From NCBI GenBank assembly GCA_002256705.1, contig NQJI01000012.1:1-16838 (forward strand): DNA of 16,838 nt, given 5' to 3'. The position numbers and the translations under genes were made by a program. Below, piece after piece: positions 928 to 16,838 of this stretch. Source of the DNA: Methylococcaceae bacterium NSM2-1 (GTDB lineage Bacteria > Pseudomonadota > Gammaproteobacteria > Methylococcales > Methylomonadaceae). The notes under the pieces are model-generated. The model had not been told where the DNA came from. It did not search any database and saw nothing but the letters and a program-made list of their open reading frames with translations. How positions within the stretch are numbered: the first letter of the stretch is position 1; the number at the start of each line of letters is the position of its first letter.

Positions 928-931
928 GCGT

Positions 932-1477
932 TTACTCGTTGGGTTCTGCGTCTAGTTCTTCTATGCGTAAATTGTGGTTGGTATAAATACAGATATCTGC
1001 GGCTATATTTAAAGACCTCTCGACAATCTCGCGTGCACTCAGATTGGTGTTTTCCAGTAACGCGCGCGCAGCCGCCTGAGCGAAAGCGCCGCCTGAGCCT
1101 ATGGCCATCAAGTCAAATTCAGGCTCGATAACATCGCCTGTGCCGGAAATAATTAACGATGTTTTGGCATCGGCAATTGTCAGCAACGCTTCCAGCTTGC
1201 GTAAGGCACGGTCAGTACGCCAGTCTTTGGCCATTTCGACAGCGGCGCGGGTCAAGTTGCCGCGATGTTTTTCCAGTTTGCCTTCAAAGTGCTCAAATAA
1301 CGTGAATGCATCCGCAGTTGCGCCGGCAAAACCGGCAATGACTTTATCATGATAAAGTCGGCGAACTTTACGGGCGTTGCCCTTCATGACTGTATTACCC
1401 AAAGTGACCTGGCCATCGCCACCAATCACAACTTTGTCGCCTCGGCGAACAGAAAGTATGGTTGTTCCTCTAAACAC
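932..1477 (-). CDS. hslV: HslV, threonine peptidase subunit of HslVU protease
   Basis: HslV is the proteasome-beta-like peptidase that stacks as two hexamers and is opened by HslU. The product is 181 residues, normal for the family. It opens [23 protein letters not shown], so the mature catalytic residue would be Thr5 after removal of a four-residue propeptide. The [21 protein letters not shown] segment and the AIGSGG motif are typical. The start codon is GTG at 1477-1475: an in-frame TAG lies four codons upstream and an AGGA sits 8 nt before the GTG. No upstream ATG is available. It is the first gene of the hslVU pair and is divergent from the lipoprotein gene at 1728. I could not find a convincing sigma-32-type promoter upstream. 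Confidence 0.97.
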
Positions 1478-1727
1478 TTTAATATCCTAAAATTACAAAA
1501 TACATGCTGTCAATTTTACATGGTATAAATTTAAAATGTGGGAAAAAATGCAGGAATGAATATATTGGCATACTCGATGCGTATGTTTTATTTTTTATTA
1601 GAGTATCTATCCCCGTGGTAGATGACGGGCAAAAAATAAAGCATGACAAAGACTCGGTGTAAGCCCTATCATTTTCGTTTTTTTTCAGCTTGATTCGCCG
1701 TATAAATTGCGGTACAAGGTTTAAAGC
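1478..1727. other. Divergent intergenic region between hslV and the lipoprotein gene
   Basis: This 250-base AT-rich gap should hold promoters for both divergent genes. On the minus strand a perfect TTGACA occurs at 1513-1508. The only -10-like box at normal spacing is TAGGAT (1489-1484, 18-bp spacer), and it overlaps the hslV ribosome binding site, so I do not trust it. On the plus strand TATAAA at 1701-1706 is a plausible -10 without a clear -35. Short inverted repeats are present: CATAC/GTATG near 1570-1586, followed by a T-rich run, and CCCGT/ACGGG near 1613-1629. No ORF is credible here. Confidence 0.4.
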
Positions 1728-3632: not shown

Positions 3633-3634
3633 AA

Positions 3635-3663
3635 TTGACTTCTGGGGAAATATATTCCATACT
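3635..3663 (+). promoter_or_regulatory. Candidate sigma-70 promoter for bacteriohemerythrin
   Basis: TTGACT (3635-3640) and CATACT (3658-3663) are separated by 17 bp, matching the consensus at 5/6 and 4/6. It lies just after the lipoprotein stop and about 40 nt before the hemerythrin start, which has a strong AGGAGA ribosome binding site. A TATAAA at 3678-3683 is an alternative -10 box with a poor -35. Confidence 0.4.
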
Positions 3664-3705
3664 TTTTGTACGGTTAATATAAATAAAACAATCAGGAGAA
3701 AAAAT

Positions 3706-4104
3706 ATGGCTTTAATTACGTGGACAGCTAGTCAATTTGGAACAAATGTTCCTTTTGCAGACGATGAACACAAGATTTTGTTTGACAAGCTCAACAAATT
3801 ATATGATCTGGCAACGGGTGGAGCGGCTCGTTCTGCAGTAGGTGATCAACTGGATGATTTGATCGCTTATGTTGTTGGACATTTTGCCCATGAAGAAAAA
3901 GAAATGCTGGCAAAAAATTACGATGGTTATGCGCGTCACAAGGCAGAGCATGAAGCATTAACAGGTATTTGCGCTGATTTGCAAACAAAGTTTCATGCGG
4001 GTAGTGCTGATGTCACCGAAGAAGTAGGGCAAATGGTCAAAGGCTGGCTAGATAATCATATTCCAACTTTTGATATGGCTTATGCAGATGCTTTAAACAG
4101 CTGA
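3706..4104 (+). CDS. Bacteriohemerythrin, di-iron O2-binding protein
   Basis: This 132-residue, single-domain hemerythrin reversibly binds O2 at a non-heme di-iron centre in the cytoplasm. All canonical ligands are present: H22 in the DDEH segment, H59 and E63 (HxxxE), H78 and H82 (HxxxH), and H118 and D123 (HxxxxD). There is no signal peptide and no fused sensor or methyl-accepting domain, so it is of the O2 carrier or storage type. Such proteins have been proposed to supply O2 to membrane oxygenases in methanotrophs; applying that here is inference. AGGAGA lies 8 nt upstream of the ATG. The gene appears monocistronic: it has a candidate promoter in front and a strong terminator 21 nt after the stop. 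It lies just upstream of the cytochrome oxidase operon, so both neighbouring units deal with oxygen. Confidence 0.95.
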   Translation: MALITWTASQFGTNVPFADDEHKILFDKLNKLYDLATGGAARSAVGDQLDDLIAYVVGHFAHEEKEMLAKNYDGYARHKAEHEALTGICADLQTKFHAGSADVTEEVGQMVKGWLDNHIPTFDMAYADALNS

Positions 4105-4125
4105 TAGTAACTTCCCATTAACAAT

Positions 4126-4165
4126 AAAAGGCTTGTGACTTCTCTGATTCACAAGCCTTTTTTTT
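4126..4165 (+). terminator. Rho-independent terminator of bacteriohemerythrin
   Basis: A 13-bp perfect stem pairs AAAAGGCTTGTGA (4126-4138) with TCACAAGCCTTTT (4149-4161) around a 10-nt loop, and a T tract follows to 4165. It separates the hemerythrin transcript from the cox operon. Confidence 0.93.
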
Positions 4166-4217
4166 GCGTCTAATTAAAATCATAAAAAGGACAGCTGGTG
4201 TAGATAGGCTTCATGGG

Positions 4218-4246
4218 TTAAAATTTCCCAGTTTATTTGTGATAAT
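4218..4246 (+). promoter_or_regulatory. Candidate sigma-70 promoter of the cox operon
   Basis: TTAAAA (4218-4223), a 17-bp spacer and GATAAT (4241-4246) match the -35 and -10 consensus at 4/6 and 5/6. The predicted transcription start near 4253 would give a leader of about 100 nt to the GTG start of coxB preferred here. It is the best promoter-like element between the hemerythrin terminator and coxB. Confidence 0.4.
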
Positions 4247-4351
4247 TATTACGTAAAAGGAACAATGCCAGCTTATTTTGCGCGGCTTGATATTACGAAA
4301 CGATATAACACTTACAAAAAGTTTTATAACTACTATCGAAGAGGCTGCTCC

Positions 4352-5884
4352 GTGAACAAAACAAAGCAACTATTCGCAGGTCTGATCTTAATGGCTTTGG
4401 CCTTAAGGACAGCGCAGGCGGATTACACTCTCAATTTAATGAAAGGGGTTACAAAGGTCAGTAATGACATTTATGACCTGCATATGCTGATTCTATGGAT
4501 TTGTGTATTTATAGGCATTGGCGTGTTTGGCACGATGTTCTACTCGATTTACCATCACCGTAAATCGAAAGGACATAAAGCGGCACAATTTCATGAAAAC
4601 ACGACGGTCGAAATTATCTGGACGATTATTCCAACCTTGATCCTGGTTGGTATGGCCATACCGGCGACAAAAGCCATGATGGAACTGGATGATGTGCAAG
4701 ACTCCGAAATGTCTATCAAGGTAACGGGCTGGCAATGGAAATGGGAATATGAATACCTTGATAAAGGCATACATTTTTTTAGCAGCCTGGATGAGGCCAG
4801 CGACAAGGCGCGTCAGATTGGCTCGGGTATCGACCCTCGCTCGGTTCCCCATTATTTGTTAAATGTTGATAAACCATTGGTAATTCCAGTTAAAAAGAAA
4901 ATTCGTTTCGTATTTACAGCGGCTGATGTAATCCATTCCTGGTGGGTGCCTGATCTGGGTTGGAAAAAAGATGCGTATCCCGGCTTTATTAATGAAGCCT
5001 GGACTTCTGTCGACAAAGCCGGTACTTATCGTGGCCAATGTACAGAGCTTTGTGGCAAGGATCATGGCTTTATGCCTATAGTGGTCGTTGCAATGGAACA
5101 GCCTGATTATGATGCATGGGTGAAAAAGACCATCGAAGAATCAAAAAAAGGCCCTGACTTAAGTGATCAAAGTCACGATGAATTGGTCTCCAAAGGGGCT
5201 GCGGTTTATGCCAAAAATTGCGTTACCTGCCATGGAGCTGAAGGTAAAGGCGTTCCGGGAGCATTTCCTGCCATCACTGCGAGCCCCGTCGTGACCGGTG
5301 ATATCAAAGCCCAGACCGAACTTGTCTTGAACGGTAAAGGCGCAATGCCTGCATTTGGCAAGATGTTAAAAGCGGATGAATTGGCTCAGGTTATTACATA
5401 TACCAGAAATGCCCTGGGGAACAAAGTCGGCGATGAAATACAGCCCAAAGCAATTCAGGATTTGTTGCCACAAACATCAGGAGCTTCGGCTGCCGCGGCA
5501 CCCGCAGCAAAAGCAGCGCCACAGGAAAAAATAGATACCAATGTAGTACTGTCGAAAGATGAATTGGTGGCTAAGGGAAAATCTGTTTACGCCAGTAGCT
5601 GCGCTTCTTGCCACATGGAGGAAGGTCAGGGTATGCCGCCTACATTTCCTGCTTTAACCGGAAGTGCAGTGGTAAAAGGCGATATCAATGCACAGGTAGA
5701 TTTAATGTTGAATGGAAAAGGCATGATGCCTGCTTTCGGAGCAATGTTAAGTGCAACTGATTTTGCTGCAGTTGTAACCTATACCCGTAATGGTTTGGGT
5801 AATTCAGTGAATGATGCCATACAGCCTTCAGCAATTCAGGCTTTGCAAGCGGCTTTGCCTGCTGCAAAGGATGATGATGGCTAA
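4352..5884 (+). CDS. coxB: Cytochrome c oxidase subunit II with two C-terminal cytochrome c domains
   Basis: Subunit II accepts electrons at the CuA centre and passes them to heme a of subunit I. The preferred start is GTG at 4352, with GAGG 7 nt upstream, because it gives a clean signal peptide ending ALRTAQA before DYTLNL. An in-frame ATG at 4265 with AAAAGG would add 29 residues. From the GTG the protein has 510 residues: signal peptide, two TM helices, the CuA cupredoxin domain with H195, C230, E232, C234, H238 and M241, then two tandem class I cytochrome c domains. Their heme sites are C290-VT-C293-H294 and C417-AS-C420-H421, each followed by a GKGxMPAFG segment that supplies the Met ligand. 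An Ala-rich linker separates the two c domains, which are very alike and suggest an internal duplication. One fused c domain (caa3 type) is common; two are less so. It is the first gene of the cox operon. Confidence 0.96.
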   Translation: MNKTKQLFAGLILMALALRTAQADYTLNLMKGVTKVSNDIYDLHMLILWICVFIGIGVFGTMFYSIYHHRKSKGHKAAQFHENTTVEIIWTIIPTLILVGMAIPATKAMMELDDVQDSEMSIKVTGWQWKWEYEYLDKGIHFFSSLDEASDKARQIGSGIDPRSVPHYLLNVDKPLVIPVKKKIRFVFTAADVIHSWWVPDLGWKKDAYPGFINEAWTSVDKAGTYRGQCTELCGKDHGFMPIVVVAMEQPDYDAWVKKTIEESKKGPDLSDQSHDELVSKGAAVYAKNCVTCHGAEGKGVPGAFPAITASPVVTGDIKAQTELVLNGKGAMPAFGKMLKADELAQVITYTRNALGNKVGDEIQPKAIQDLLPQTSGASAAAAPAAKAAPQEKIDTNVVLSKDELVAKGKSVYASSCASCHMEEGQGMPPTFPALTGSAVVKGDINAQVDLMLNGKGMMPAFGAMLSATDFAAVVTYTRNGLGNSVNDAIQPSAIQALQAALPAAKDDDG

Positions 5885-5939
5885 GCCATTGACTATGTTA
5901 TCAATCAAATCTTTTTTATCTACTTTAGAGGTATAAACT

Positions 5940-7556
5940 ATGTCTGCTGTAACAGCCGAACATGTTGATCATCACGATGATCATGATCACGGTCCTGCCA
6001 AGGGGCTTTTAAGATGGGTGATTACCACCAACCATAAGGATATAGGTACTTTGTATCTGGTGTTTGCACTGGCAATGTTTTTTGTTGGTGGCATCATGGC
6101 AATGATTATCCGTGCTGAATTGTTTGAGCCCGGATTACAGTTTGTTCAGCCACAATTCTTTAACTCAATGACCACCATGCACGCCCTGGTGATGGTATTT
6201 GGAGCGGTTATGCCGGCTTTTGTTGGTTTGGCTAACTGGATGATTCCAATGATGATTGGCGCCCCAGATATGGCATTGCCACGGATGAATAACATGAGTT
6301 TCTGGTTATTGGTCTCCGGCGTTTTATTGCTTGCCAGCACGTTATTTATGGAAGGTGGTTCGCCTGCTGCCGGCTGGACCTTGTATCCGCCCCTGGTTTT
6401 GCAAACAGGTAACGCCTTGCCATTTGCAGTTTTCTCAGTGCATTTGCTGGGCATTTCATCCATCATGGGTGCTATTAACATCATCGCAACGATTTTCAAT
6501 ATGCGTGCGCCTGGCATGACCTTAATGAAAATGCCGCTATTTGTTTGGACCTGGTTAATCACCGGATTTCTGTTAATCGCTATCATGCCGGTTTTTGCTG
6601 GTGCGGTAACCATGTTGCTGACCGACAAGTTTTTCGGCACCAGTTTTTTTGATGCTGCCGGTGGTGGTGATCCCATTCTTTATCAACATATTTTCTGGTT
6701 TTTTGGACACCCTGAAGTTTATGTAATGATTCTGCCAACTTTTGGCGTAGCTTCTACCATTATCCCTGTGTTTGCCCGTAAACCTTTATTTGGCTATAGC
6801 TCAATGGTTTATGCGACGGCTTCGATTGCATTTTTATCATTTATCGTTTGGGCTCACCACATGTTTACTGTGGGCATGCCTGTCGCTGGCGAACTTTATT
6901 TTATGTATGCAACCATGTTAATTGCGATACCTACCGGGGTTAAAGTATTTAACTGGACTGCAACCATGTGGAAAGGTTCGTTGACCTTTGAAACACCCAT
7001 GCTGTTTTCAATTGCGTTTGTCGTTCTTTTTACCATGGGCGGGTTCACTGGTTTGATGATGTCTATTGCGCCGTCTGATTTTCAGTATCACGATACCTAC
7101 TTTATCGTTGCCCATTTCCATTACACGCTGGTGCCTGCTTCTGTCTTTATTTTGATGGCTGCTGGTTATTACTGGTTACCTAAATGGACAGGCCACATGT
7201 ATAACGAAAAGATTGGCCAATTGCATTTCTGGTTATCTGCCGTGTCAGTTAATATCCTGTTCTTTCCTCAGCATTTCTTGGGGTTAGCAGGTATGCCGCG
7301 CAGAATTCCGGATTATGCGGTGCAATTTGCTGACTGGAATATGATTTCAAGTATTGGTGGTTTTATATTTGGAGCTAGCCAATTACTGTTCCTATATATC
7401 GTTATTGATACCATTAGAGGCGGGACGGGCGAAAAAGTAACGGATGAAGTATGGGAAGATGCTCACAAGCATGGCCTGGAGTGGACTCTACCTTCGCCTC
7501 CTCCATACCATACGTTTACCACACCGCCCACAGTTATACCTACAGAACATATCTGA
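5940..7556 (+). CDS. coxA: Cytochrome c oxidase subunit I (heme a, heme a3-CuB)
   Basis: This is the catalytic, proton-pumping subunit of an aa3-type oxidase. It has 538 residues, the usual length, with about twelve TM helices. The low-spin heme a ligands are H81 (MTTMHALVMVFG) and H394 (HFHY), and H392 is the heme a3 ligand. CuB is bound by H257 of FGHPEVY, with the Tyr261 of the His-Tyr cross-link, and by H306-H307 of WAHHMFTVG. The N-terminus is rich in His and Asp (EHVDHHDDHDHGPAKG), as is common in gammaproteobacterial CoxA. GAGG lies 8 nt before the ATG. The gene follows coxB after 55 nt, and the hairpin at 7619-7647 separates it from the downstream assembly genes. No missing residue or frame problem is seen. 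Confidence 0.98.
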   Translation: MSAVTAEHVDHHDDHDHGPAKGLLRWVITTNHKDIGTLYLVFALAMFFVGGIMAMIIRAELFEPGLQFVQPQFFNSMTTMHALVMVFGAVMPAFVGLANWMIPMMIGAPDMALPRMNNMSFWLLVSGVLLLASTLFMEGGSPAAGWTLYPPLVLQTGNALPFAVFSVHLLGISSIMGAINIIATIFNMRAPGMTLMKMPLFVWTWLITGFLLIAIMPVFAGAVTMLLTDKFFGTSFFDAAGGGDPILYQHIFWFFGHPEVYVMILPTFGVASTIIPVFARKPLFGYSSMVYATASIAFLSFIVWAHHMFTVGMPVAGELYFMYATMLIAIPTGVKVFNWTATMWKGSLTFETPMLFSIAFVVLFTMGGFTGLMMSIAPSDFQYHDTYFIVAHFHYTLVPASVFILMAAGYYWLPKWTGHMYNEKIGQLHFWLSAVSVNILFFPQHFLGLAGMPRRIPDYAVQFADWNMISSIGGFIFGASQLLFLYIVIDTIRGGTGEKVTDEVWEDAHKHGLEWTLPSPPPYHTFTTPPTVIPTEHI

Positions 7557-7618
7557 GCGGTTTAACAGATTGTTTAATGTCAGTATGACTCCTGTTTGTA
7601 AAGTGTAAATACTCTGAA

Positions 7619-7647
7619 ATGCGCTACCTGCTTAACAGTTAGCGCAT
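7619..7647 (+). other. Stem-loop between coxA and the downstream assembly genes
   Basis: ATGCGCTA (7619-7626) pairs perfectly with TAGCGCAT (7640-7647). After one C/T mismatch, CTG/CAG extends the stem around a 5-nt loop. No T tract follows, so it is unlikely to be a full terminator. An mRNA 3' stabiliser or processing site that sets coxA expression above ctaG is a reasonable reading. Confidence 0.6.
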
Positions 7648-7655
7648 GTGGCGGG

Positions 7656-7757
7656 ATGATGAATTTAAAAACGAAAAATATTTTGACAGCATTGATTTTG
7701 GTCTCGATTGCGGTCACTATTTATGTGTTAGCGGTCATTAAAGCAATTTCTCAATGA
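7656..7757 (+). CDS. Small single-TM protein in the cox operon, 33 codons
   Basis: The reading frame opens with two adjacent ATGs (7656 and 7659) and encodes 33 residues: a short Lys-containing N-terminus (MMNLKTKN), one hydrophobic helix (ILTALILVSIAVTIYVLAVI) and the tail KAISQ. Its stop codon overlaps the ctaG start in an ATGA arrangement (7754-7757), which is strong support for translation and coupling. Tiny one-TM proteins annotated as cytochrome oxidase small assembly proteins are known between coxA and ctaG in other Proteobacteria. Position and topology fit that class, although I cannot confirm homology from 33 residues. The ribosome binding site is weak (GCGGG immediately before the ATG). 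It should sit in the inner membrane and may assist oxidase assembly. Confidence 0.65.
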   Translation: MMNLKTKNILTALILVSIAVTIYVLAVIKAISQ

Positions 7758-8299
7758 ATAAAGATACGAGGCAAAAAAATGCCAACCTGGTTCGTACATT
7801 AGTGCTTGTTGCTTTAGGCATGTTTGGCTTTGGTTATGCGCTGGTTCCTCTTTATGATGTGATGTGTGAAGTTGTATTTAAAAAGGAGAAACCCGGTATA
7901 CCCGTAGCGGCTGAAGAAGTCAGCTACAAGGTCGATAAAAACAGGGAAATTACCGTGGAATTTATGACTACGGTCAATAAATCTGCGCCTATGCTGTTCC
8001 GTTCAGAAATAAAAAAACTGAAAATTCATCCGGGAGAGTATGTTACGGTGAATTTTTATGCAGAAAACAAGACTGATAAAGCAATGGTGGCTCAGGCAAT
8101 TCCAAGTATTTCACCTGGGCCCGCTGCTGAATATTTTAAAAAGACCGAGTGTTTTTGTTTTACAGAGCAAACATTCAAAGCGCGAGAAGGTAAAACCATG
8201 CCGGTGCGTTTTGTTGTGAATCCTGAGATACCAGAGCAATATAAAACAATTACACTTGCCTATACATTTTTTGATAATACTGAAACATCAGTGAAATAA
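7754..8299 (+). CDS. ctaG: CtaG/Cox11 family copper chaperone for cytochrome oxidase assembly
   Basis: Cox11/CtaG delivers copper to CuB of subunit I. The product has 181 residues. A short cytoplasmic N-terminus is followed by one TM helix (LVRTLVLVALGMFGFGYALVPL) and the family motif YDVMC, then a periplasmic immunoglobulin-like domain. That domain carries the copper-binding CFCF pair within TECFCFTEQ and the conserved stretch PVRFVVNPEIP. All expected Cys residues are present. The start overlaps the stop of the preceding 33-codon gene (ATGA), and coxC begins 12 nt after its stop. The gene lies between coxA and coxC, the standard position. Confidence 0.96.
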   Translation: MNKDTRQKNANLVRTLVLVALGMFGFGYALVPLYDVMCEVVFKKEKPGIPVAAEEVSYKVDKNREITVEFMTTVNKSAPMLFRSEIKKLKIHPGEYVTVNFYAENKTDKAMVAQAIPSISPGPAAEYFKKTECFCFTEQTFKAREGKTMPVRFVVNPEIPEQYKTITLAYTFFDNTETSVK

Positions 8300-8311
8300 G
8301 AGGGGAAGTTT

Positions 8312-9205
8312 ATGTCTACAAATGTCGCCTATTACATTCCGCATAAAGCGACTTGGCCAGTGATTGCTACTGCTGGTTTGGTTACCATGCTGGCTGGATT
8401 TGCAAATTATTTAAATGGTTCTTCGATAGGCCCGACTTTAATGGTGGTGGGTCTGGTTATATTCATTGTTATGTTGGCTGGCTGGTTTACCCTGCAGTCG
8501 GGTGAAAGTGAGTCAGGCATGTACAATACCCAGGTAGGTATTTCCTATCGTATGGGCATGATGTGGTTCATTTTTTCTGAAATCATGTTTTTTGCTGTTT
8601 TTTTCGGCACGCTTTATTATACGCGTAATTTATCAGTGCCATGGCTGGGCGGTGAAGGGACTGGTGCTGCGACTAAAGAATTGCTTTGGCCGACATTTGA
8701 AGCAACCTGGCCAACTAATGGCCCCAAAGGCCTTGGCGTCGATGCATCCGGCGCCAGAACATTTGGCGCAGAATTTGAGCCCATGGGAGCCTGGGGTTTG
8801 CCATTTTTGAATACCTTGATTTTGTTGACCAGTGGTGTCACCTGTACCTGGGCGCATCATGGCCTGCTTGCAAAAAATCGGGATCAGTTGATCAAAGGCT
8901 TGATCGCAACTGTTGCATTAGGCTTTACGTTCGTTGCATTTCAGGCCTTCGAGTATCATGAAGCCTATACTGAAATGGGCTTGACCTTGGGCTCAGGCAT
9001 ATACGGCTCTACTTTCTTTATGCTGACGGGTTTTCATGGTTTCCATGTTTGTATAGGGGCCATTATTCTGAGTGTTGTGCTGTTCCGAAGCACCAGGGGC
9101 CACTTCAAACCGGAAAACCACTTCGCTTTTGAAGCCGCAGCATGGTACTGGCATTTTGTTGACGTCGTATGGTTGGGTTTGTTTGTGTTTGTTTATTTGA
9201 TGTAA
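8312..9205 (+). CDS. coxC: Cytochrome c oxidase subunit III
   Basis: Subunit III stabilises the oxidase and is thought to hold the lipid-lined O2 entry path next to subunit I. The protein has 297 residues with seven hydrophobic segments. The C-terminal signature AWYWHFVDVVWLGLFVFVY and the FHGFHV motif are typical. A loop of about 60 residues rich in Gly, Pro and Trp (around residues 108-165) lies between early helices, as in many proteobacterial subunits. GAGGGG precedes the ATG by about 7 nt. It is the last gene of the transcription unit, which ends at the strong hairpin near 9223-9261. Confidence 0.97.
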   Translation: MSTNVAYYIPHKATWPVIATAGLVTMLAGFANYLNGSSIGPTLMVVGLVIFIVMLAGWFTLQSGESESGMYNTQVGISYRMGMMWFIFSEIMFFAVFFGTLYYTRNLSVPWLGGEGTGAATKELLWPTFEATWPTNGPKGLGVDASGARTFGAEFEPMGAWGLPFLNTLILLTSGVTCTWAHHGLLAKNRDQLIKGLIATVALGFTFVAFQAFEYHEAYTEMGLTLGSGIYGSTFFMLTGFHGFHVCIGAIILSVVLFRSTRGHFKPENHFAFEAAAWYWHFVDVVWLGLFVFVYLM

Positions 9206-9222
9206 TTTACACATTAACACCC

Positions 9223-9261
9223 AAAAAAGCGCTGCCTAACAACAGGCAGCGCTTTTTTTTT
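9223..9261 (+). terminator. Terminator of the cox operon, likely bidirectional
   Basis: AAAAAAGCGCTGCCT (9223-9237) pairs with AGGCAGCGC plus Ts (9244-9258) around the 6-nt loop AACAAC. The T tract on the plus strand reaches 9261, and the A tract on the left arm gives a T tract on the minus strand. It can therefore end coxC transcription and the convergent DUF2909 gene. Confidence 0.94.
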
Positions 9262-9283
9262 GTCGGGTGGACCGTCTGCTTAT

Positions 9284-9541
9284 TTACTTAATGCGTTCAG
9301 TCTGTGCCGGTTGTTGCATGTGCATTTTTATACCCAGTCCATGAGGTTTAAAAATACCCGTTGCAACGGCAATAAAAACAAAAATAAATAACAGGATTGA
9401 AAGCGCAATACGAAAAGTCAGTGCTTTAACTGTTTTTTCGGATTGTTCTTCGGTTTTACGGTTCACCAGGTGAAACAGGGCGGAGCCGAGACTGATAATT
9501 ATCAGGATAAAGGCAATAATGACGACGCTTTTGATAATCAT
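9284..9541 (-). CDS. DUF2909-type twin-transmembrane protein
   Basis: The product is 85 residues with two hydrophobic helices, about residues 3-24 (VVIIAFILIIISLGSALFHL) and 45-64 (IALSILLFIFVFIAVATGIF). They are joined by a charged loop (NRKTEEQSEKTVKA). Size, topology and the conserved helix-loop pattern fit the DUF2909 family, which is repeatedly found beside cox genes in Gammaproteobacteria. Its biochemical role is not established. It runs antiparallel to the cox genes, between coxC and the SURF1 gene, and shares the terminator at 9223-9261. The start ATG at 9541 has no strong ribosome binding site. A helper in oxidase assembly or insertion is inferred from location only. Confidence 0.82.
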   Translation of the reverse strand: MIIKSVVIIAFILIIISLGSALFHLVNRKTEEQSEKTVKALTFRIALSILLFIFVFIAVATGIFKPHGLGIKMHMQQPAQTERIK

Positions 9542-9621
9542 GATAGAGTTATGCTTATAGGTAAGATTTTTCTATTCTCGTTTATTAATGTGTCTGTGCC
9601 AATAGGTTAAAGAAAAAAAGC

Positions 9622-10362
9622 ATGATTATTAAAACTAGACGCTATTCAATGACATTTGAAAAAGCTCCCACACTGGCTTATTTATGTTTATTACCTCTGC
9701 TAATTGCACTGGGAATCTGGCAATTGGGGCGTTCAGAGGAGAAAAGGATATTTCTTGATCAGCAGAAACAAGGGTTAGCCTCTGCTGAAATCATACAGTT
9801 ATCTACTGCCCTTGAAGATAATGTGGACGCGCTCAGGTATAAAAAAGTACAAGCGACCGGGCATTATGATCAAGCGCATCAATTTTTGATAGATAACCAA
9901 GTCAGTGCCGGGAAAGCGGGATATTTTGTTTTGGCCCCGTTTGTTCTGCATGGGGAAGCCAAGGCTGTGTTGGTCAATAGAGGCTGGGTTCCGTTAAATC
10001 AGGATAGATCGGTGTTGCCTGAACTGCAGATCAGAAATGAACCAACAATTGTCAGAGGCCGGATAAATCGTTTTCCTGGCGTTGGTATAAAATTGGCAGG
10101 GGCGGAAATACCATCGGAGGGTTGGCCATCAGTGGTGCAAGTAGTAGACAATCAAGTTTTGGAAAAAAAACTGGCTTATTCATTATTTTCATTTCAGATC
10201 GAGCTGGATAAGGATCAACCCGAAGGCTTTAAAAGGGAATGGCAAACAACAGCAATTATGTTGCCTGAACAGCATACAGCCTATGCTTTTCAATGGTTTG
10301 CACTGGCATTTACGCTTACATTATTATTTATCTGGTACAGTTGTAAAAGAAATCATGAATAA
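9622..10362 (+). CDS. SURF1 family cytochrome oxidase assembly protein
   Basis: SURF1/Shy1 proteins help place heme a in subunit I. The product has 246 residues: an N-terminal TM helix with the signature LGIWQLGR (about residues 30-37), a periplasmic domain with VLVNRGWVPLNQDR, and a C-terminal TM helix after the conserved YAFQWFALA. ATG at 9622 is used; an in-frame ATG at 9649 would still keep the first helix. Neither has a strong ribosome binding site. It opens a second plus-strand unit that runs through the SCO-like gene, the ctaA-ftsY fusion, ftsE and ftsX. Its last 8 nt overlap the next gene. Confidence 0.94.
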   Translation: MIIKTRRYSMTFEKAPTLAYLCLLPLLIALGIWQLGRSEEKRIFLDQQKQGLASAEIIQLSTALEDNVDALRYKKVQATGHYDQAHQFLIDNQVSAGKAGYFVLAPFVLHGEAKAVLVNRGWVPLNQDRSVLPELQIRNEPTIVRGRINRFPGVGIKLAGAEIPSEGWPSVVQVVDNQVLEKKLAYSLFSFQIELDKDQPEGFKREWQTTAIMLPEQHTAYAFQWFALAFTLTLLFIWYSCKRNHE

Positions 10363-11095
10363 TCAACAGAAAAAAAATCGACTATTGATTCTGGCTATTT
10401 TTGGAATGACCATTATTCCTTTTTTAATCGCCTGGGGATTGAAGCAATATCCGGGGCTGGTAACGGGTAAAACAAACAGTGGGCAGTTGATAATTCCCCC
10501 GGTACCCACTAAGCTGACTGATTTTACCGGTTTTGATCCATTTTCGGCTGAGAATATGGGGGAACTTTCCGGACACTGGTTGATAGTCAATGTGATTCCA
10601 AACGCCGGATGTAATGAAATTTGCCTTGATGCGCTGCTTAAAACCAGACAATTAAGACTCATGTTAAACAAGGAGTTACCCCGCACGCGCCGTGTCGTTA
10701 TTGTGTTTAAAGAACCTGTGGCAGAAGCGGCAAGTCAATGGTGGTTGAAGGACACACTGTTATGGCGGTTACGTCGTACAGAAAATAAAGAAGAGGATAA
10801 TGCGCTCTTTTTGAGTTTGTTGCGCGAAGAAAACAAGGTAGATGATGCGCTAATAGAAAAATTAATTGCTAATGAAAACAGGGAATTCGCGCTTAATTCA
10901 GAGCTTATCAGGGTTAAGCCCAGCGCGAGACTGGCTAGAATAATTGCTGATATCAGGCAAGGCTCAATACCTGATGGTATGTTGTTTTTAATGGATCCTT
11001 TGGGAAATTTAATGATGCAATATGAACCGGGTTTCAATACTTACAAAGTAAAAGATGATCTCATGCATCTACTTAGAATTTCACAAATTGGTTAG
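10355..11095 (+). CDS. SCO-like membrane-anchored thioredoxin-fold protein of the cox cluster
   Basis: The likely start is ATG at 10355, inside the end of the SURF1 gene (8-nt overlap); the same frame is open further upstream but that part lies within SURF1. This gives 246 residues: a basic N-terminus (NNQQKKNR), one TM helix (LLILAIFGMTIIPFLIAWGL) and a periplasmic domain. The SGHWLIVNVIPNAGC segment and the pair C86-x3-C90 resemble the metal-binding CxxxC of SCO/thioredoxin-fold copper proteins. Genes of this type often lie between SURF1 and ctaA in Gammaproteobacteria. A role in copper or thiol handling during CuA assembly is inferred, not shown. The fusion gene follows after 16 nt. Confidence 0.85.
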   Translation: MNNQQKKNRLLILAIFGMTIIPFLIAWGLKQYPGLVTGKTNSGQLIIPPVPTKLTDFTGFDPFSAENMGELSGHWLIVNVIPNAGCNEICLDALLKTRQLRLMLNKELPRTRRVVIVFKEPVAEAASQWWLKDTLLWRLRRTENKEEDNALFLSLLREENKVDDALIEKLIANENREFALNSELIRVKPSARLARIIADIRQGSIPDGMLFLMDPLGNLMMQYEPGFNTYKVKDDLMHLLRISQIG

Positions 11096-11111
11096 TGGTA
11101 AATAAAATAAA

Positions 11112-13064
11112 ATGTTCAGAAAAATAACTCTATTTGGCGTTGTTTTAACGCTAATAATTATAGTCTTAGGTTCATTCTTTCGGTTGTCGGCTGCTGATCT
11201 GGTCTTATCCAAACAAGGGTTTATTGATGTATTGAGAGTCAGCGGCCATGTCTATCTGGCGGCTACATTAGGTTTTTTGACCTTGTTGCTGGGCTTGATG
11301 TCATGGCAGCAGCAACAATGCCGATTAGCCGCAATGACGACCTCATTGATTCTGCTAGTTTTAGTTGGTTTACAATCGGCCCTGGGTTATTGGGCTAAAG
11401 CTATACACGTTATGCCTATCGTCATAACCACGCATGTATTGCTGGGCATGATGACTTTCTGGTTGCTTTTTTGGCTGTATTTGCGTGTTAATCCGGCAAT
11501 AGCCGGGCGAATTGGTGTCAGTTTACCAGGACAGGTGCGTATCGGGCTTGTAAACTTTACCCGTTTTGCCCAGTTTATTTTAGTATTGCAGATCGTACTG
11601 GGAGCCTGGGTTAGCGCCAATCATGCGGCTTTAGCTTGTAGCGGGTTTCCTCTTTGCAATGGACAATGGTGGCCTAAGGCCGATTATCAAAATGCGCTAA
11701 ATTTATTTAGCGGATTAGATAGTGGTTATACCGGCGTTATTTCATACGACGCACAGGTTGCAGTCAACTGGCTTCATAGAATTGGTGCGTTGTTGAGCTT
11801 TGTGTTGCTGAGTTTGCTGATGTTCAGTGCAACTGCAACAAATTCACTCAAACCGGTAAAAAGAGCAGGTTTATGGTTGGGTGTGTTGCTGTTTGTACAG
11901 ATTGGCTTAGCCATTATTGGCGTCAAGCTGAGTATGCCCCTGTGGGCAGCCGTAGCTCATCAAGCAGTTGCCGCATTATTAATGCTGCCCTTGATTGCGA
12001 TCAGTTTTTATAGCAGATACGGCGGTATACCGGTACAAGCGCCTGTTTTAGAAGTAAAGCTTCCACAAGAAATCGTTGAAACGGGTGCGGTTTCAGTGCC
12101 AGTTGAAGCGCTAATTGAAGAAATTTTTGTAAAACCTGAGCCTGAGTCACTATACTTACGTCTCAAGTCACAATTACAACGAACCCGTTCCGGCCTTAGC
12201 GGTATACTGTCCGGCCTGCCTATAGGCCAGAAAGAAATTAATGATGATTTACTGGAGGAAATTGAAGCCAGTTTAATAATGGCCGATGTGGGTGTTGATG
12301 CTACAACCGAAATAATAAGGCACTTGACGCAAAGTGTTGAGCGGCATCAGTTGAATGATGGATTGGCATTATCAGCTGCCTTAAAACAGGAATTGCTGAG
12401 TATTCTCAAACCCTGCAACATACCACTGAGAATACCGGAACAAGAAACGCCATTTGTTATTCTGGTTGTCGGAGTCAATGGAGCAGGCAAAACCACAACC
12501 ATAGGCAAATTGGCAAAGCGCCTTCAGGCACAAGGTCATAGCGTCATGTTGGCTGCAGGAGACACTTTTAGAGCGGCGGCTGTTGAGCAGTTACAGGTTT
12601 GGGGAGAGCGTAATAATATCCAGGTGGTAGCTCAACATACAGGAGCAGATTCCGCTTCGGTTATCTACGATGGTCTGCAATCCGCGCAAGCTAAAGGCAT
12701 AGATGTTTTGATTGCTGATACGGCAGGTCGATTGCACACAAAATCAAATTTAATGGACGAGTTGAAAAAAGTAAAAAGGATTATGGGTAAACTGGATCAA
12801 ACAGCACCCCATGAAGTGCTGTTGGTATTAGATGCCGGGACTGGACAAAATGCCTTGTCCCAGGCAAAACTGTTTAATGAAACAGTAGCATTAACAGGGC
12901 TGGTGTTGACCAAGTTGGACGGTACGGCAAAGGGTGGCATTATATTCGCCTTGGCCAAACACACCGGTATTCCAATTCGTTTTATAGGCATAGGCGAAGG
13001 TATCGATGATTTGCAGGATTTTGATGCAGAACTGTTTGTCGATGCCTTGTTCGTAAAAGACTAA
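11112..13064 (+). CDS. CtaA-FtsY fusion: heme A synthase joined to SRP receptor GTPase
   Basis: One uninterrupted frame of 650 residues combines two normally separate proteins. Residues 1-303 form CtaA/COX15, which converts heme O to heme A. It has eight hydrophobic helices, histidines H46, H108, H222 and H283 at the expected helix positions, and a Cys pair C176/C182 in the periplasmic loop (CSGFPLCNGQWWP). The CPDWP loop expected after helix 1 is absent. Residues 304-346 are a Glu/Pro-rich linker with no Met. Residues 347-650 are a full FtsY NG domain: four-helix N domain, P-loop GVNGAGKT (454-461), DTFRAA (484-489), DTAGRLH (536-542), TKLDG (600-604) and the FtsY-specific GIGEGIDDLQDF. The ribosome binding site is weak. 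The gene lies between cox assembly genes and ftsE, which starts 6 nt after its stop, so both halves sit beside their usual partners. Confidence 0.93.
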   Translation: MFRKITLFGVVLTLIIIVLGSFFRLSAADLVLSKQGFIDVLRVSGHVYLAATLGFLTLLLGLMSWQQQQCRLAAMTTSLILLVLVGLQSALGYWAKAIHVMPIVITTHVLLGMMTFWLLFWLYLRVNPAIAGRIGVSLPGQVRIGLVNFTRFAQFILVLQIVLGAWVSANHAALACSGFPLCNGQWWPKADYQNALNLFSGLDSGYTGVISYDAQVAVNWLHRIGALLSFVLLSLLMFSATATNSLKPVKRAGLWLGVLLFVQIGLAIIGVKLSMPLWAAVAHQAVAALLMLPLIAISFYSRYGGIPVQAPVLEVKLPQEIVETGAVSVPVEALIEEIFVKPEPESLYLRLKSQLQRTRSGLSGILSGLPIGQKEINDDLLEEIEASLIMADVGVDATTEIIRHLTQSVERHQLNDGLALSAALKQELLSILKPCNIPLRIPEQETPFVILVVGVNGAGKTTTIGKLAKRLQAQGHSVMLAAGDTFRAAAVEQLQVWGERNNIQVVAQHTGADSASVIYDGLQSAQAKGIDVLIADTAGRLHTKSNLMDELKKVKRIMGKLDQTAPHEVLLVLDAGTGQNALSQAKLFNETVALTGLVLTKLDGTAKGGIIFALAKHTGIPIRFIGIGEGIDDLQDFDAELFVDALFVKD

Positions 13065-13070
13065 AAAATC

Positions 13071-13727
13071 ATGATAAAGTTCGTCAATGTAACCAAGCGC
13101 TACCCTGAGACCGGCGATGTATTGCGTAATGTCAGTTTTCATTTGCAGCGTGGCGAAATTGCATTTCTTACCGGTCATTCAGGGGCAGGGAAAAGCACGT
13201 TATTAAGATTGATTGCGGCCATGGAGCGTTGTAGCCGCGGCCAGATAGTATTGGATGAACAGGAGCTCTGCCATGTCAAAGAAAGTCAGCTGCCTTTTAT
13301 ACGAAGAAAAATGGGCTTTATCTATCAGGATTATAAGCTGCTTCAAGATAGAACCGTTTTTGATAATGTGGCATTACCGCTGGTGATAGCTGGCTTCGGC
13401 CACCATGAAATCGCCCGCAGGGTAAGGGCAGCATTAGATAAAGTAAGCTTATCTGGCAAAGAAAAAAAATACCCTCTGGCCTTGTCGGGTGGTGAGCAGC
13501 AGCGGGTAGGAATTGCCCGGGCTGTGGTTAATAAGCCGCCAATCATTATCGCGGATGAACCAACTGGCAATCTGGATCCGGAATTGTCGGAAGAAATCAT
13601 GTTTTTATTTGGACAGTTTCAACAGGTCGGCGTTACCGTGTTGATCGCCTCACATGACATTTCTTTAATTACACAACTGAACCATCGCGTATTGAAGTTG
13701 GATCATGGTCAACTGGTTTCGAGTTAA
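13071..13727 (+). CDS. ftsE: FtsE, ATP-binding subunit of the FtsEX division complex
   Basis: FtsE is the cytoplasmic ATPase that, with FtsX, activates septal peptidoglycan hydrolases and joins the divisome. The product has 218 residues, the normal size. It shows Walker A GHSGAGKST (35-43), signature LSGGEQQR (138-145), Walker B ending in D162-E163 within IIIADEPTGNLD, and the switch His in ASHD. The N-terminus MIKFVNVTKRYP is typical. It begins 6 nt after the stop of the ctaA-ftsY fusion without a clear ribosome binding site, so coupled translation is likely. ftsX follows 3 nt after its stop. Confidence 0.97.
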   Translation: MIKFVNVTKRYPETGDVLRNVSFHLQRGEIAFLTGHSGAGKSTLLRLIAAMERCSRGQIVLDEQELCHVKESQLPFIRRKMGFIYQDYKLLQDRTVFDNVALPLVIAGFGHHEIARRVRAALDKVSLSGKEKKYPLALSGGEQQRVGIARAVVNKPPIIIADEPTGNLDPELSEEIMFLFGQFQQVGVTVLIASHDISLITQLNHRVLKLDHGQLVSS

Positions 13728-13730
13728 GCT

Positions 13731-14750
13731 ATGAAACGGGTCAATAAAAATCGTATCAGGAAAGATCCTCCGGTTAGGCCAGTCAGGCAGGACACCCGGC
13801 AAACTAAAACTGCGGGCGGAAATTTTGTCGATAAATTAAATGCCTATCGAGACCTTCATGCGCACGCATTGTTTTCCAGTCTTGGCCGCCTGATCGCCTC
13901 ACCATTTACCTCGATAATGACTATTGCTGTCCTGGCTATTGCCATTTCACTTGCCAGCGGTTTTTATATTTTAGTCGTGAATCTTCAGCAATTAACAGGT
14001 AATCTGGAAACCAGCAATCAAATCTCCTTATTTCTCAGGGACGATGTTTCTGATGCACACGCCAATAAATTAGCTGGCAGTATCAGGCAGAATGCGAGTG
14101 TTCAGGACGTTAAATTAATTACCAGGGAACAGGCGTTAGCTGAATTCAAAACCTATAGCGGCTTCGGCGGAGCGATTAATGCACTGGAAAAAAATCCGTT
14201 GCCTATTGTCATTCAGGTGTTACCTAAAAATACTCTGGAAGATAAGCAAGGGCTTGAGAATTTGCTGAAAAGCTTTCAACAATCGCCTGAAGTCGATATT
14301 GCCCAGATGGATCTGCAGTGGGTTGAACGCCTGCAGTCTATTATGGCCGTGGCTAGGCTTTTTGCTACCTTACTCAATGTGATGTTAGGAGGGGCTGTGT
14401 TGTTTATTATCGGTAATACGATTCGACTGGAACTGCATAATCGACGTGATGAAGTGGTGATCGCTAAATTGGTTGGTGCTACAAATGCGTTCATTCAGAG
14501 ACCGTTTTTGTATACTGGTTTTTGGATCGGGCTTATTTCAGGCGTATCAGCCTGGTTTATAGTTACCACGCTGATGCTGATATTAAGAAAACCGGTTGAA
14601 AAGCTCTCAGGACTTTATGAAGGCGGCTTCCATTTGTTGTTTTTGAGTTTCACCGAAACGCTGTCGTTGATAGGTATTTCATCGGGGTTGGGGGTATTAG
14701 GTTCGTGGGTGATACTCATTTATCAGCTTCAGCACACAAAACCTGAGTAA
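13731..14750 (+). CDS. ftsX: FtsX, membrane subunit of the FtsEX division complex
   Basis: FtsX is the four-helix inner-membrane partner of FtsE that passes the ATPase signal to periplasmic hydrolase activators. The product has 339 residues. An extended basic N-terminus (about 35 residues rich in Arg, Lys and Pro) precedes the first helix around residues 58-84. A periplasmic domain of roughly 110-120 residues follows, with helices near 200-225, 253-280 and 300-330. The RRDEVVIAKLVGAT segment after helix 2 is the FtsX/MacB-type coupling motif. The gene starts 3 nt after ftsE. No terminator lies between it and rpoH, so some read-through into rpoH is possible. Confidence 0.96.
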   Translation: MKRVNKNRIRKDPPVRPVRQDTRQTKTAGGNFVDKLNAYRDLHAHALFSSLGRLIASPFTSIMTIAVLAIAISLASGFYILVVNLQQLTGNLETSNQISLFLRDDVSDAHANKLAGSIRQNASVQDVKLITREQALAEFKTYSGFGGAINALEKNPLPIVIQVLPKNTLEDKQGLENLLKSFQQSPEVDIAQMDLQWVERLQSIMAVARLFATLLNVMLGGAVLFIIGNTIRLELHNRRDEVVIAKLVGATNAFIQRPFLYTGFWIGLISGVSAWFIVTTLMLILRKPVEKLSGLYEGGFHLLFLSFTETLSLIGISSGLGVLGSWVILIYQLQHTKPE

Positions 14751-14758
14751 AAAACGAG

Positions 14759-14787
14759 CTGAAAAAAATTATTAGCACTCCTATGAA
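14759..14787 (+). promoter_or_regulatory. Candidate rpoH promoter overlapping CIRCE
   Basis: CTGAAA (14759-14764) and TATGAA (14782-14787) are 17 bp apart, each matching the sigma-70 consensus at 4/6. The -10 box falls inside the 9-nt CIRCE spacer, so a bound repressor would block it. The match is modest; the placement is what makes it plausible. Confidence 0.4.
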
Positions 14788-14798
14788 GAGAGTGCTAA
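14772..14798. promoter_or_regulatory. CIRCE element (HrcA operator) upstream of rpoH
   Basis: TTAGCACTC (14772-14780), a 9-nt spacer and GAGTGCTAA (14790-14798) form the exact consensus of the CIRCE inverted repeat bound by the heat-shock repressor HrcA. It lies 32 nt before the rpoH start. No T tract follows directly, so it is not a simple terminator for ftsX. HrcA itself is not encoded in this window. Confidence 0.95.
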
Positions 14799-14830
14799 AA
14801 TTCCCTTAAAGTTTTTTCCCAGGAGATACC

Positions 14831-15688
14831 ATGAGTAATGCATTGGCTTTACCCGTTAATTTATCGGTTGGAACATTTGATGCCTATTTGAATCTGGTCC
14901 GGCAAATGCCTAGATTGACATCTGATCAGGAACGCGAGTTAACGTTAAGATTTAAAGATCAGGGTGATTTGGAAGCGGCGCGAGAATTGGTCATGACCAA
15001 TTTACGTTTTGTCGTTCATGTCGCCAGAGGTTATAGTGGTTATGGTTTGTCAATGCCTGATATTATTCAGGAAGGCAATATCGGACTAATGAAAGCTGTC
15101 AAGCGTTTTGATCCTGACGTAGGTGTGCGTTTAGTGTCTTTTGCGGTACATTGGATTAAAGCCGAAATTCACGAGTATGTGATTAAAAACTGGGGCATTG
15201 TAAAGGTCGCGACAACCAAAGCCCAGCGCAAGCTGTTTTTTAATTTACGCAAATCCAAACATGATATAGGCTGGTTATCGAATGACGAAGCGATGGCTAT
15301 TGCAGAAGATCTGAATGTTGAACTGAGTGACGTATACGAAATGGAAAAACGCCTGGGTAGTCAGGATATGTCTTTCGATATGCCCGTTGATGAGTCTGCA
15401 GAAGAAGGCTATGCGTATCCAGCAAACTACCTTCAGCAACACGGTGCCGATCCTTCTGTATTGCTTGAAAATGCCGATTGGGAAGGGCATGGACAGGATT
15501 TATTATCAGAGGCACTGGCTGAATTGGATGAGCGAAGTCTGGATATTCTTTCAAGTCGCTGGTTGACGGACAAAAAAGCCACATTACATGAGCTTGCTGA
15601 GCGCTATGGCGTATCTGCCGAAAGAATCAGGCAATTAGAACAAAATGCCATGAAAAAGCTCCGAGCAGCAGTTGTACTTGAAGCCTGA
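14831..15688 (+). CDS. rpoH: RpoH, heat-shock sigma factor sigma-32
   Basis: RpoH directs RNA polymerase to heat-shock promoters. The product has 285 residues. Region 2 carries [40 protein letters not shown] and the -10-binding [14 protein letters not shown]. The RpoH box, [12 protein letters not shown], starts at Q132 and distinguishes it from RpoD and RpoS. Region 4 with the helix-turn-helix ([27 protein letters not shown]) ends the protein. AGGAG lies 5 nt before the ATG. The gene follows ftsX, the usual gammaproteobacterial order, but has its own CIRCE-bearing control region and a strong terminator, so it can be expressed alone. Confidence 0.98.
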
Positions 15689-15709
15689 CAGGCATTTATC
15701 GATAGCATT

Positions 15710-15746
15710 AAAAAAGGCTTAACGATTCTATTGTTAAGCCTTTTTT
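15710..15746 (+). terminator. Rho-independent terminator of rpoH
   Basis: AAAAAAGGCTTAAC (15710-15723) pairs perfectly with GTTAAGCCTTTTTT (15733-15746) around a 9-nt loop, 21 nt after the rpoH stop. The flanking A and T tracts would also allow termination from the minus strand. Confidence 0.93.
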
Positions 15747-16075
15747 AGCCTACAGCATTTAAAATGCTGTAAAAACAGTTTTACTGATTATCCTTAAAAC
15801 TCAGTTGAGTAATCTAAAATCCCGTTCGTCCTGATATATAGAAGGGTAGAGCGGAATTTTGGACTAATGGTCATGACTCTCAGTCATTGTCATTGACGGT
15901 TTTCGTAAGCTATTATGCTTGGTATTCAGAATTTACACTGCGAAACTTCTTGTTTTCGACGGATGGCAATATGAGTCTTACGGACCATAAGCTTTGTATT
16001 CTATTTCTTTCTGTTGATCAGGTCGAAGCGTTACAATCCCTGGTTTTTTTGAGAGACCATTCTTTCGAATCAAAT
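15747..16075. other. Non-coding stretch with serial inverted repeats
   Basis: No credible ORF lies in these 329 bases. Four inverted repeats follow the rpoH terminator: TACAGCATTT/AAATGCTGTA (15751-15771), ACTCA/TGAGT (15799-15810), a 12-bp imperfect stem AAAATCCCGTTC/GAGCGGAATTTT (15816-15860) with one mismatch and one wobble, and ATGACT/AGTCAT (15873-15887). From about 15890 to 16075 I see nothing recognisable. The stretch could hold a small RNA or remnants of a mobile repeat, but neither is shown. Confidence 0.5.
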
Positions 16076-16312
16076 TTAAGCAGGGTTGAGCAGGTTCAGT
16101 ACTGTTTGTGCCTGTTCTGCGGCTTCATGACCCAGGCTAGTCAAGTAACCTCCATCCTCCTGTGTTACCAATCCTTTTACGTGCAAACGTTTTGTGGCGG
16201 CAATGATTTCGGGGGCAGCTGTTTTATGTACCTTGATTCCTTCTTGTGTGGTGTTCAGGTTGTAGCGAACCAGAATGTTTATTTCGTCTACAATGTCTTG
16301 GGTATAGGGCAT
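16076..16312 (-). CDS. TIGR02647-type small conserved protein
   Basis: The product is 78 residues and resembles the TIGR02647 family of small gammaproteobacterial proteins, sometimes described as DNA-binding, whose function is unproven. The characteristic run is EGIKVHKTAAPEIIAATKRL followed by HVKGLVTQEDGGYLTSLGHEAAE. This looks like a small winged-helix-like fold: a helix pair, then KGL-x-T-x-DGGYLT as a possible wing. There is no signal peptide or TM helix, so it should be cytoplasmic. GAGGAT lies 5 nt before the ATG at 16312. It is downstream of the rhodanese gene on the same strand, but 203 nt separate them, so it probably has its own promoter. Confidence 0.86.
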   Translation of the reverse strand: MPYTQDIVDEINILVRYNLNTTQEGIKVHKTAAPEIIAATKRLHVKGLVTQEDGGYLTSLGHEAAEQAQTVLNLLNPA

Positions 16313-16515
16313 AGAAAATCCTCACGATTTATTGATACAACTGAATAGCATAAAGCTATTTCTAAAGAAGGAGTATCTTTTTTTTTCGAGAGCATACACA
16401 ATAACACTACAATGACACGAAAAAAGCCTAAGGTAAAAACTTCGTGTTCTTCGTGCTCCTTCGACTGCACTCAGGACAGGCTTCGTGGTAAAAATTTGTG
16501 AAGCTCGTAAATCAG
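16313..16515. other. Intergenic region between the rhodanese and TIGR02647 genes
   Basis: This 203-base gap holds a run of nine to ten Ts near 16378-16387 and the composite repeat at 16440-16487. A small ATAGC/GCTAT hairpin lies near 16345-16359, just upstream of the TIGR02647 ribosome binding site. No clear promoter or terminator can be assigned. Confidence 0.4.
16440..16487. repeat. CTTCGTG direct repeats interrupted by a REP-like segment
   Basis: Three copies of CTTCGTG start at 16440, 16449 and 16481; on the minus strand they read CACGAAG. Between copies two and three sits a segment (about 16458-16480) reading CCTTCGACTGCACTCAGGA then CAGG. It resembles the dispersed CTTCGAC...TCAGGACAGG repeats seen in many bacterial genomes. 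This looks like a repeat nested in another repeat. Its copy number elsewhere cannot be judged from this window. Confidence 0.55.
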
Positions 16516-16838
16516 TTAATAACGACGTACTGAACTATCACAGTTACAAGCCCATGCATCAATACCGCCGGTTAAATTGGCGATATTTTTAAATCCAGAC
16601 TGAAGAAGATAGTTGGCGGCTTGTTGACTACGCATGCCATGGTGACAAATCACAACAATCTCCTGTTGCGGATCCAGTTCATCCAGTCTTTTCGGGATTT
16701 GATTAAGTGGAATCAATACGCTATTAGCGATATGGGCGTATTGAAACTCGTGGGGTTCTCTGACATCCAGCAAAAATAGTTTTTCTTCCCGTTGAATCCT
16801 GTTCTTTAATTCTGTTGCTGATAGTTGTTTTACAGTCA
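16516..16838 (-). CDS. Rhodanese-like sulfurtransferase (start codon clipped by the window edge)
   Basis: Single-domain rhodanese, about 108 residues, moving sulfane sulfur through an active-site cysteine. The minus strand is open from the right edge, where the last two bases read TG as the end of an nTG codon, followed by TVKQLSATELKNRI. The start codon is therefore most likely the codon whose first base lies just outside the window. Motifs are LLDVREPHEF (substrate-side loop), the active-site loop CHHGMRS, and the C-terminal NLTGGIDAWA. There is no signal peptide, so it is cytoplasmic. It resembles the small rhodaneses related to GlpE/PspE but cannot be assigned to either. The gene ends at TAA 16518-16516. 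Confidence 0.92.
   Translation of the reverse strand, partial: TVKQLSATELKNRIQREEKLFLLDVREPHEFQYAHIANSVLIPLNQIPKRLDELDPQQEIVVICHHGMRSQQAANYLLQSGFKNIANLTGGIDAWACNCDSSVRRY

Follow-up and report, generated by a model that had tools for sequence, protein, structure and literature searches.

This analysis concerns a gene within a 16,838-nucleotide stretch of DNA from Methylococcaceae bacterium NSM2-1 (contig NQJI01000012.1, positions 1 to 16,838), referred to here as the window. In this gene, heme A synthase (CtaA) and FtsY, the receptor of the signal recognition particle (SRP), are joined in one reading frame. We consider it likely that the SRP receptor of this bacterium is encoded here as an integral membrane protein: an eight-helix anchor derived from CtaA, and probably binding heme b, takes the place of the FtsY A domain and holds the receptor permanently at the membrane.

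An open-frame scan of the window found no internal stop within the frame 11112–13064 (+). Pfam profiles matched the fusion protein as COX15-CtaA at residues 46–292 (127.6 bits), SRP54_N at 361–428, and SRP54 at 447–647 (258.5 bits), and the TIGR00064 ftsY model scored 366.2 bits against a cut-off of 260.7, identifying the protein as an FtsY. AlphaFold modeled eight membrane-length helices (2–30, 38–66, 71–97, 102–125, 144–169, 212–240, 247–272, and 277–302) and, C-terminal to a low-confidence linker (308–338; predicted local distance difference test score about 40), an NG domain whose fold includes the first helix of NG+1. A structure search with the whole fusion model listed only SRP-GTPase chains among its matches; the CtaA part was modeled alone for structure search, and by both profile and fold the protein belongs to the CtaA/Cox15 family. 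A single 650-codon frame, an eight-helix CtaA, and a complete FtsY NG GTPase had been proposed in an earlier note on this DNA, and all three are borne out here. Across 132 fusions surveyed for their residues (one per genome, 46 genera), the linker region (residues 304–352) had a median length of 44 amino acids, with 15% Glu and 13% Pro. The parts of the gene, with E57, R61, H216, and H278 given in Bacillus subtilis numbering, are as follows.

11112..13064 (+): fused ctaA-ftsY gene, 650 codons plus stop; open frame with Pfam and NCBIfam matches
11112..11531 (+): CtaA N bundle, helices 1–4, residues 1–140, the substrate-heme half, from AlphaFold helices and the residue table; loop 1, Cys pair 1, E57, and R61 lost
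11532..12020 (+): CtaA C bundle, helices 5–8, residues 141–303, the heme-b half
11637..11657 (+): Cys pair 2, codons C176 to C182; pair kept in 130 of 132 fusions
11775..11780 (+): H222-R223 codons, predicted heme-b ligand position H216; His kept in 131 of 132 fusions
11958..11960 (+): H283 codon, predicted heme-b ligand position H278; kept in 131 of 132 fusions
12021..12143 (+): linker, residues 304–344, modeled as disordered; acidic and rich in proline throughout the family
12144..13061 (+): FtsY NG+1 GTPase, residues 345–650

The fusion is real. The window genome (G000) is an assembly of 279 contigs and 65% complete, which might invite the explanation that the joined frame is an assembly or sequencing error; the chance of this is negligible, and the explanation is refuted because the same architecture recurs in many independent genomes, some of them closed in one contig. 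Ten more database proteins (P0002–P0011) from other contigs, perhaps of the same population, are 99–100% identical over their full length, and full-length relatives at 63–97% identity occur in many other genomes. The same three Pfam domains recur in all 120 database matches listed. Matches that bear a name go by FtsY or SRP receptor and come from Methylobacter, Methylococcaceae, Methylococcales, or Gammaproteobacteria; the order was taken as Methylococcales from such names. Named records with the fusion include Candidatus Methylobacter oryzae, Methylomonas koyamae, Methylomonas sp. SURF-1, Methylococcus sp. UBA6136, Crenothrix polyspora, and a Methyloglobulus. In two families, f7 (assigned to Cycloclasticus from what its closest database proteins are called) and f8, ctaA and ftsY are separate genes. 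Outside these families, a set of 61 genomes holds 54, and a full-length fused frame was found in 49 of them, with fragments only in the other five (G004, G005, G022, G023, and G027). Among 79 chosen genomes from 39 genera, 74 had a fused frame of at least 565 amino acids and three had fragments (G022, which belongs to both sets, G112, and G215). With the fusion as query, G124 and G241 (the latter rated 100% complete) yielded no FtsY match, only distant SRP-GTPases.

G000, at 65% completeness, gave one TIGR00064 match above the cut-off, the fusion itself, with two others below it, and in G018 (one contig, 100% complete) no second FtsY was found beside the fusion, only two distant SRP-GTPase matches (35% and 29% identity). 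Beyond the order, in searches of 369 class and 299 phylum genomes, no row starting before query residue 299 appeared among roughly the top 155 listed for each. The fusion is ancient and occurs in most of the order. As assembled, one locus (L125, genome G218) has the fused gene broken in the N half of CtaA, with a 152-amino-acid frame carrying an intact KEMGHRY followed by a 571-amino-acid frame with the rest and FtsY. A link with methane monooxygenase was considered and rejected: PF02461 was present in 47 of 52 genomes, including 8 of 10 unfused f7/f8 genomes, and was not found in the fusion genomes G037, G040, and G133 (87, 94, and 78% complete). Presence of the fusion thus does not merely follow that of this enzyme.

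The two halves of the CtaA domain have fared differently. Residues were mapped to B. subtilis CtaA and checked on an alignment to structure 6a2j, in which the four histidines pointed out in the earlier note, H46, H108, H222, and H283, do align with H60, H123, H216, and H278. Its description of CtaA as complete does not hold, as the Pfam match begins at profile position 81, loop 1 with Cys pair 1 is deleted, and E57 and R61 of the E-x-x-H-R motif are replaced by V43 and V47. Cys pair 2 (C176 and C182) is kept. Over the surveyed fusions, the substrate-heme site retains E57 in 38, H60 in 94, R61 in 64, and H123 in 88, with all four in 30, and Cys pair 1 is present in 81. Where the N site is incomplete (102 fusions), both heme-b histidines remain in 101 and Cys pair 2 in 100. 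All of these residues are intact in 14/14 unfused CtaA proteins of f7/f8. By genus, nine were all intact, 34 had no intact member, and three were mixed, so that intact fusions came from 12 genera; on the FtsY tree described below, the intact or lost label requires at least 11 changes (79 labeled rows, 23 intact). Within the window genus, mean identity was 0.479 in the N half, 0.628 in the C half, and 0.878 in FtsY; the corresponding values among intact fusions were 0.574, 0.526, and 0.748. Only seven CtaA columns were invariant in 112 chosen fusions (G164, C176, P180, C182, H222, R223, and H283), and these recurred in a set of 80 rows that includes two unfused proteins; three rows of genus g36 lie outside both sets. 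These data support decay of the substrate-heme half in most lineages, that of the window included, with the heme-b half (two His and Cys pair 2) nearly invariant.

Changing H60 or H123 abolishes synthase activity, and H216 and H278 hold heme b (PMC12808453, review); Cys pair 1 is important for the synthase, whereas Cys pair 2 is dispensable (PMC12808453). Since the fusions lose residues essential to the synthase and keep the heme-b histidines together with the dispensable cysteines, the CtaA half reads as an anchor. From these residue patterns, we infer that window-type fused CtaA has lost synthase activity, and its CtaA domain probably still binds heme b.

The earlier note had offered a further meaning, in which a working synthase supplies heme A beside SRP-dependent insertion of CoxA. 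A bifunctional protein of this kind is, as a general account, quite improbable, and for the window lineage the proposal is not supported, given the loss of Cys pair 1, E57, and R61 and the separate, full-length CtaA present in all 7 other tested genomes of the genus. More broadly, the N site is incomplete in 102 of the 132 fusions, a stretch of the N bundle is gone from all three g32 proteins (frames of 565–570 amino acids), and a separate CtaA, distant in sequence, occurs in 70 of the 77 fusion genomes tested (in G063, G156, and G251 as pieces only). The same account does draw on the intact N site of 30 fusions from 12 genera, on the place of the window gene still within a cox operon, and on the four g34 genomes and G040, where the fused CtaA is the only CtaA found. 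These five genomes, all at least 94% complete, have an intact fused site, as do 15 of the 70 genomes with the paralog (Fisher p 0.0009; G000 and G050 omitted, kinship ignored, and the five representing two lineages). A bifunctional enzyme is possible among the 30 intact-site fusions, above all in g34 and G040. In the g32 loci (L139, L141, and L142), the remaining hydrophobic segments fit, on our reading, helices 1, 4, and 5–8, still an even number.

The separate paralog has Asn in place of H60 in 19/19 sequences examined, a substitution that occurs naturally elsewhere (PMC8239418, PMC12808453). A paralog of this form, with the motif TEYxNRL and no Cys pair 2, occurs across the order, at L084:7270-8244 (+), L096:7194-8213 (+), and 17 similar loci. 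It is similar to type 1.3 (H60N) in Table 1 of PMC8239418 and does not lie beside cox genes in L084 or L096. In G000, at 65% completeness, the paralog was not found; since no ctaB above the cut-off was found there either, incompleteness of the genome best accounts for its absence.

Several observations weigh against the reading of the fusion as a heme-b-anchored receptor that has given up heme A synthesis. The window protein itself retains H60 and H123. Type 2 CtaA enzymes naturally lack Cys pair 1 (PMC12808453), and E57 is also replaced in CtaA groups filed as heme A synthases (E57N, and E57K with H123N; PMC8239418 Table 1), so loss of E57 is no proof of inactivity. Decayed fusions occur without a paralog in G000 and G050 (65% and 85% complete, both incomplete), and the H60N paralog does not necessarily make heme A. 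Because the fused site is still intact in 15 of 70 paralog-bearing genomes, a paralog allows decay without compelling it. Finally, in genus g36, neither heme ligand nor Cys pair 2 is left in G237, while in G189 Cys pair 2 is gone and alignment around H216 is difficult, although this residue was scored as kept; heme is therefore not required everywhere. At the g36 loci (L162, L165, and L168), the CtaA domain is barely recognizable and hydrophobic segments still precede FtsY.

A rival explanation is a plain hydrophobic anchor, in which the helices matter, the heme does not, and His and Cys persist only through the history of folding. G237, and probably G189, lost ligands yet carry several hydrophobic segments before FtsY, and a simple transmembrane (TM) segment is enough to tether FtsY in Escherichia coli (PMC5533587, PMC2780400). 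We nevertheless regard this explanation as unlikely, as 131 of 132 fusions keep both ligands while nearby and N-half residues vary freely, and C176, C182, H222, and H283 are among the seven invariant columns of the 112 rows, to which g36 does not contribute.

A tether would also be undone if FtsY were released by an internal start or by cleavage, so that a soluble receptor persists. E. coli FtsY also occurs in an N-terminally shortened form, and many of the fusions (93/132) have Met291, where helix 8 ends. A Shine-Dalgarno-like site at this Met was present in only 2 of the 93, a weak test because by the same pattern true starts show one in only 24/132. In-frame ATG, GTG, or TTG codons with such a site were found in 18/132 linkers, against 7, 44, and 72 in three control stretches. 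An in-frame Met lies in only 12/132 linkers, which leaves a separately started FtsY unsupported, and we judge release of the receptor to be very improbable.

Returning to the tethered receptor, the FtsY tree (80 fused, 5 unfused, and 23 outgroup rows) placed the fusion as one change, with the unfused families outside (Shimodaira-Hasegawa-like approximate likelihood-ratio support 95); the tree was a quick one, without bootstrap and with long outgroup branches. A single origin of the fusion, kept afterwards, is supported. In f7/f8 loci (L042, L045, L051, and L052) and outgroup loci (L198 and L203), cox genes, ctaA, and ctaB face rpoH-ftsX-ftsE-ftsY on the opposite strand; L191 has the same facing layout, except that its ctaB match lies upstream of ctaA. 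Immediately behind ctaA stands ctaB in 62 of 74 unfused loci. All five f6 loci read ctaA+ftsY, ftsE, ftsX, rpoH, and then ctaB reversed, the order expected after a single inversion that broke the DNA behind ctaA and within the 5′ portion of ftsY. Gene order thus points to a single inversion, next to the cox operon, of the block ctaB-rpoH-ftsX-ftsE-ftsY, which would have brought the 5′ portion of ftsY up to the 3′ end of ctaA, creating the fusion once. In the stretches examined, no ctaB was found at the three f4 loci L289–L291, and no ftsE, ftsX, or rpoH was found behind the fusion in L290, L291, and L226 (all f4); in these last three, the cluster was therefore broken by later rearrangement and the fusion retained.

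The data support an FtsY that keeps NG+1 and whose A domain is replaced by the eight-helix CtaA domain and a flexible linker. Of the interpretation in the earlier note, one protein with FtsY permanently anchored and a tether replacing the A domain is supported, and the working synthase coupled to CoxA insertion is not supported for the window lineage. CtaA has both termini inside, and with an even number of helices the GTPase would face the cytoplasm, held at the membrane, where SRP-ribosome complexes would meet an always-tethered receptor, as at the eukaryotic endoplasmic reticulum. FtsY must contact the membrane and, permanently tethered, is functional in E. coli; a membrane anchor rescues A-domain truncations unless NG is locked in its active shape (PMC2780400, PMC5533587). 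As the lipid-binding first helix of NG+1 is kept in the fusion, it would still be free for a regulatory step, and regulation by lipid and SRP can persist. Heme A would come from the separate paralog, and the CtaA domain would serve as an anchor stabilized by heme b, whose C bundle might mediate oligomer formation. In Aquifex, CtaA forms a trimer by way of the C bundle (PMC7327177), the half conserved in the fusions, and by analogy clustering of FtsY through this bundle may be a consequence. More tentatively, and with doubt outweighing belief, the SRP receptor in most of the order may double as a b-type cytochrome, a former heme A synthase retained for the four-helix bundle that binds heme b. 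SRP-dependent insertion would then run through a protein in which the redox state or occupancy of the heme governs the extent to which FtsY is folded, clustered (at the C-bundle trimer interface), or active; if so, membrane-protein insertion would be tied to heme supply and respiration.

The neighboring genes in the window are as follows.

4265..9205 (+): upstream oxidase operon of coxB 4265–5884, coxA 5940–7556, cox11/ctaG 7754–8299, and coxC 8312–9205; frames, with COX2 and COX1 Pfam matches; cox11 and coxC presumably so, as named from translation
9622..11095 (+): surf1 9622–10362, then a conserved gene without a Pfam match (frame 10283–11095, start uncertain), from frames and Pfam
13071..15688 (+): ftsE 13071–13727, ftsX 13731–14750, and rpoH 14831–15688, the inverted block downstream of the fusion; frames, FtsX Pfam match, and synteny; ftsE and rpoH presumably so, as named from translation

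The gene following surf1 was found at the same place in most compared loci. Window CoxB (4265–5884, +; 539 amino acids) has two cytochrome c-like stretches after its COX2 domain, and a hemerythrin-domain protein is encoded at 3706–4104 (+), immediately 5′ of the cox genes. A 634-amino-acid frame at 1728–3632 (+) has a lipoprotein-like start and no Pfam match. Between coxC and surf1 lies a DUF2909 gene (9284–9541, −), as in many other gammaproteobacterial loci.

The need of bacterial FtsY for a soluble phase is debated. As encoded, FtsY cannot be soluble in this lineage, which therefore makes soluble-receptor models testable in living cells. The family also presents what looks like an enzyme turned anchor, with one cofactor site kept and the other lost many times in parallel. 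For annotation, genes named FtsY here hide a CtaA domain, and counts of CtaA domains overcount heme A synthases. No natural CtaA-FtsY fusion was described among the titles and abstracts listed in our literature searches; fusions were excluded from the alignments of PMC12808453. The fold and the parts are known, and the architecture and history are new to us.

Compared with E. coli FtsY, the fusion shares the NG+1 GTPase (61–62% identity in aligned structures) and differs in carrying eight CtaA helices instead of an acidic A domain with peripheral membrane binding. The E. coli ftsY gene presumably holds the same place, ahead of ftsE-ftsX-rpoH. E. coli itself lacks CtaA, with no PF02628 match in the control genome. 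Unlike the CtaA/Cox15 proteins of B. subtilis (6a2j) and Aquifex (8aw5), the window protein lacks Cys pair 1, E57, and R61 and has a C-terminal FtsY. In the eukaryotic SRP receptor, where SR-alpha is held by SR-beta, an SRP-binding GTPase is likewise permanently tethered (PMC2780400), but its tether is a separate GTPase subunit rather than a fused, putative heme protein. CtaB-CtaA fusions also join CtaA to another protein (PMC9145763, PMC8239418), although the partner there is the pathway's next enzyme and not a targeting GTPase. Membrane-held FtsY is functional in TM-anchored Gram-positive FtsY and in engineered TM-FtsY fusions (PMC2780400, PMC5533587, citing Zelazny 1997 and Bibi 2001); those rely on one helix or an artificial anchor, whereas the fusion described here has a natural, eight-helix, probable former enzyme with a predicted heme site.
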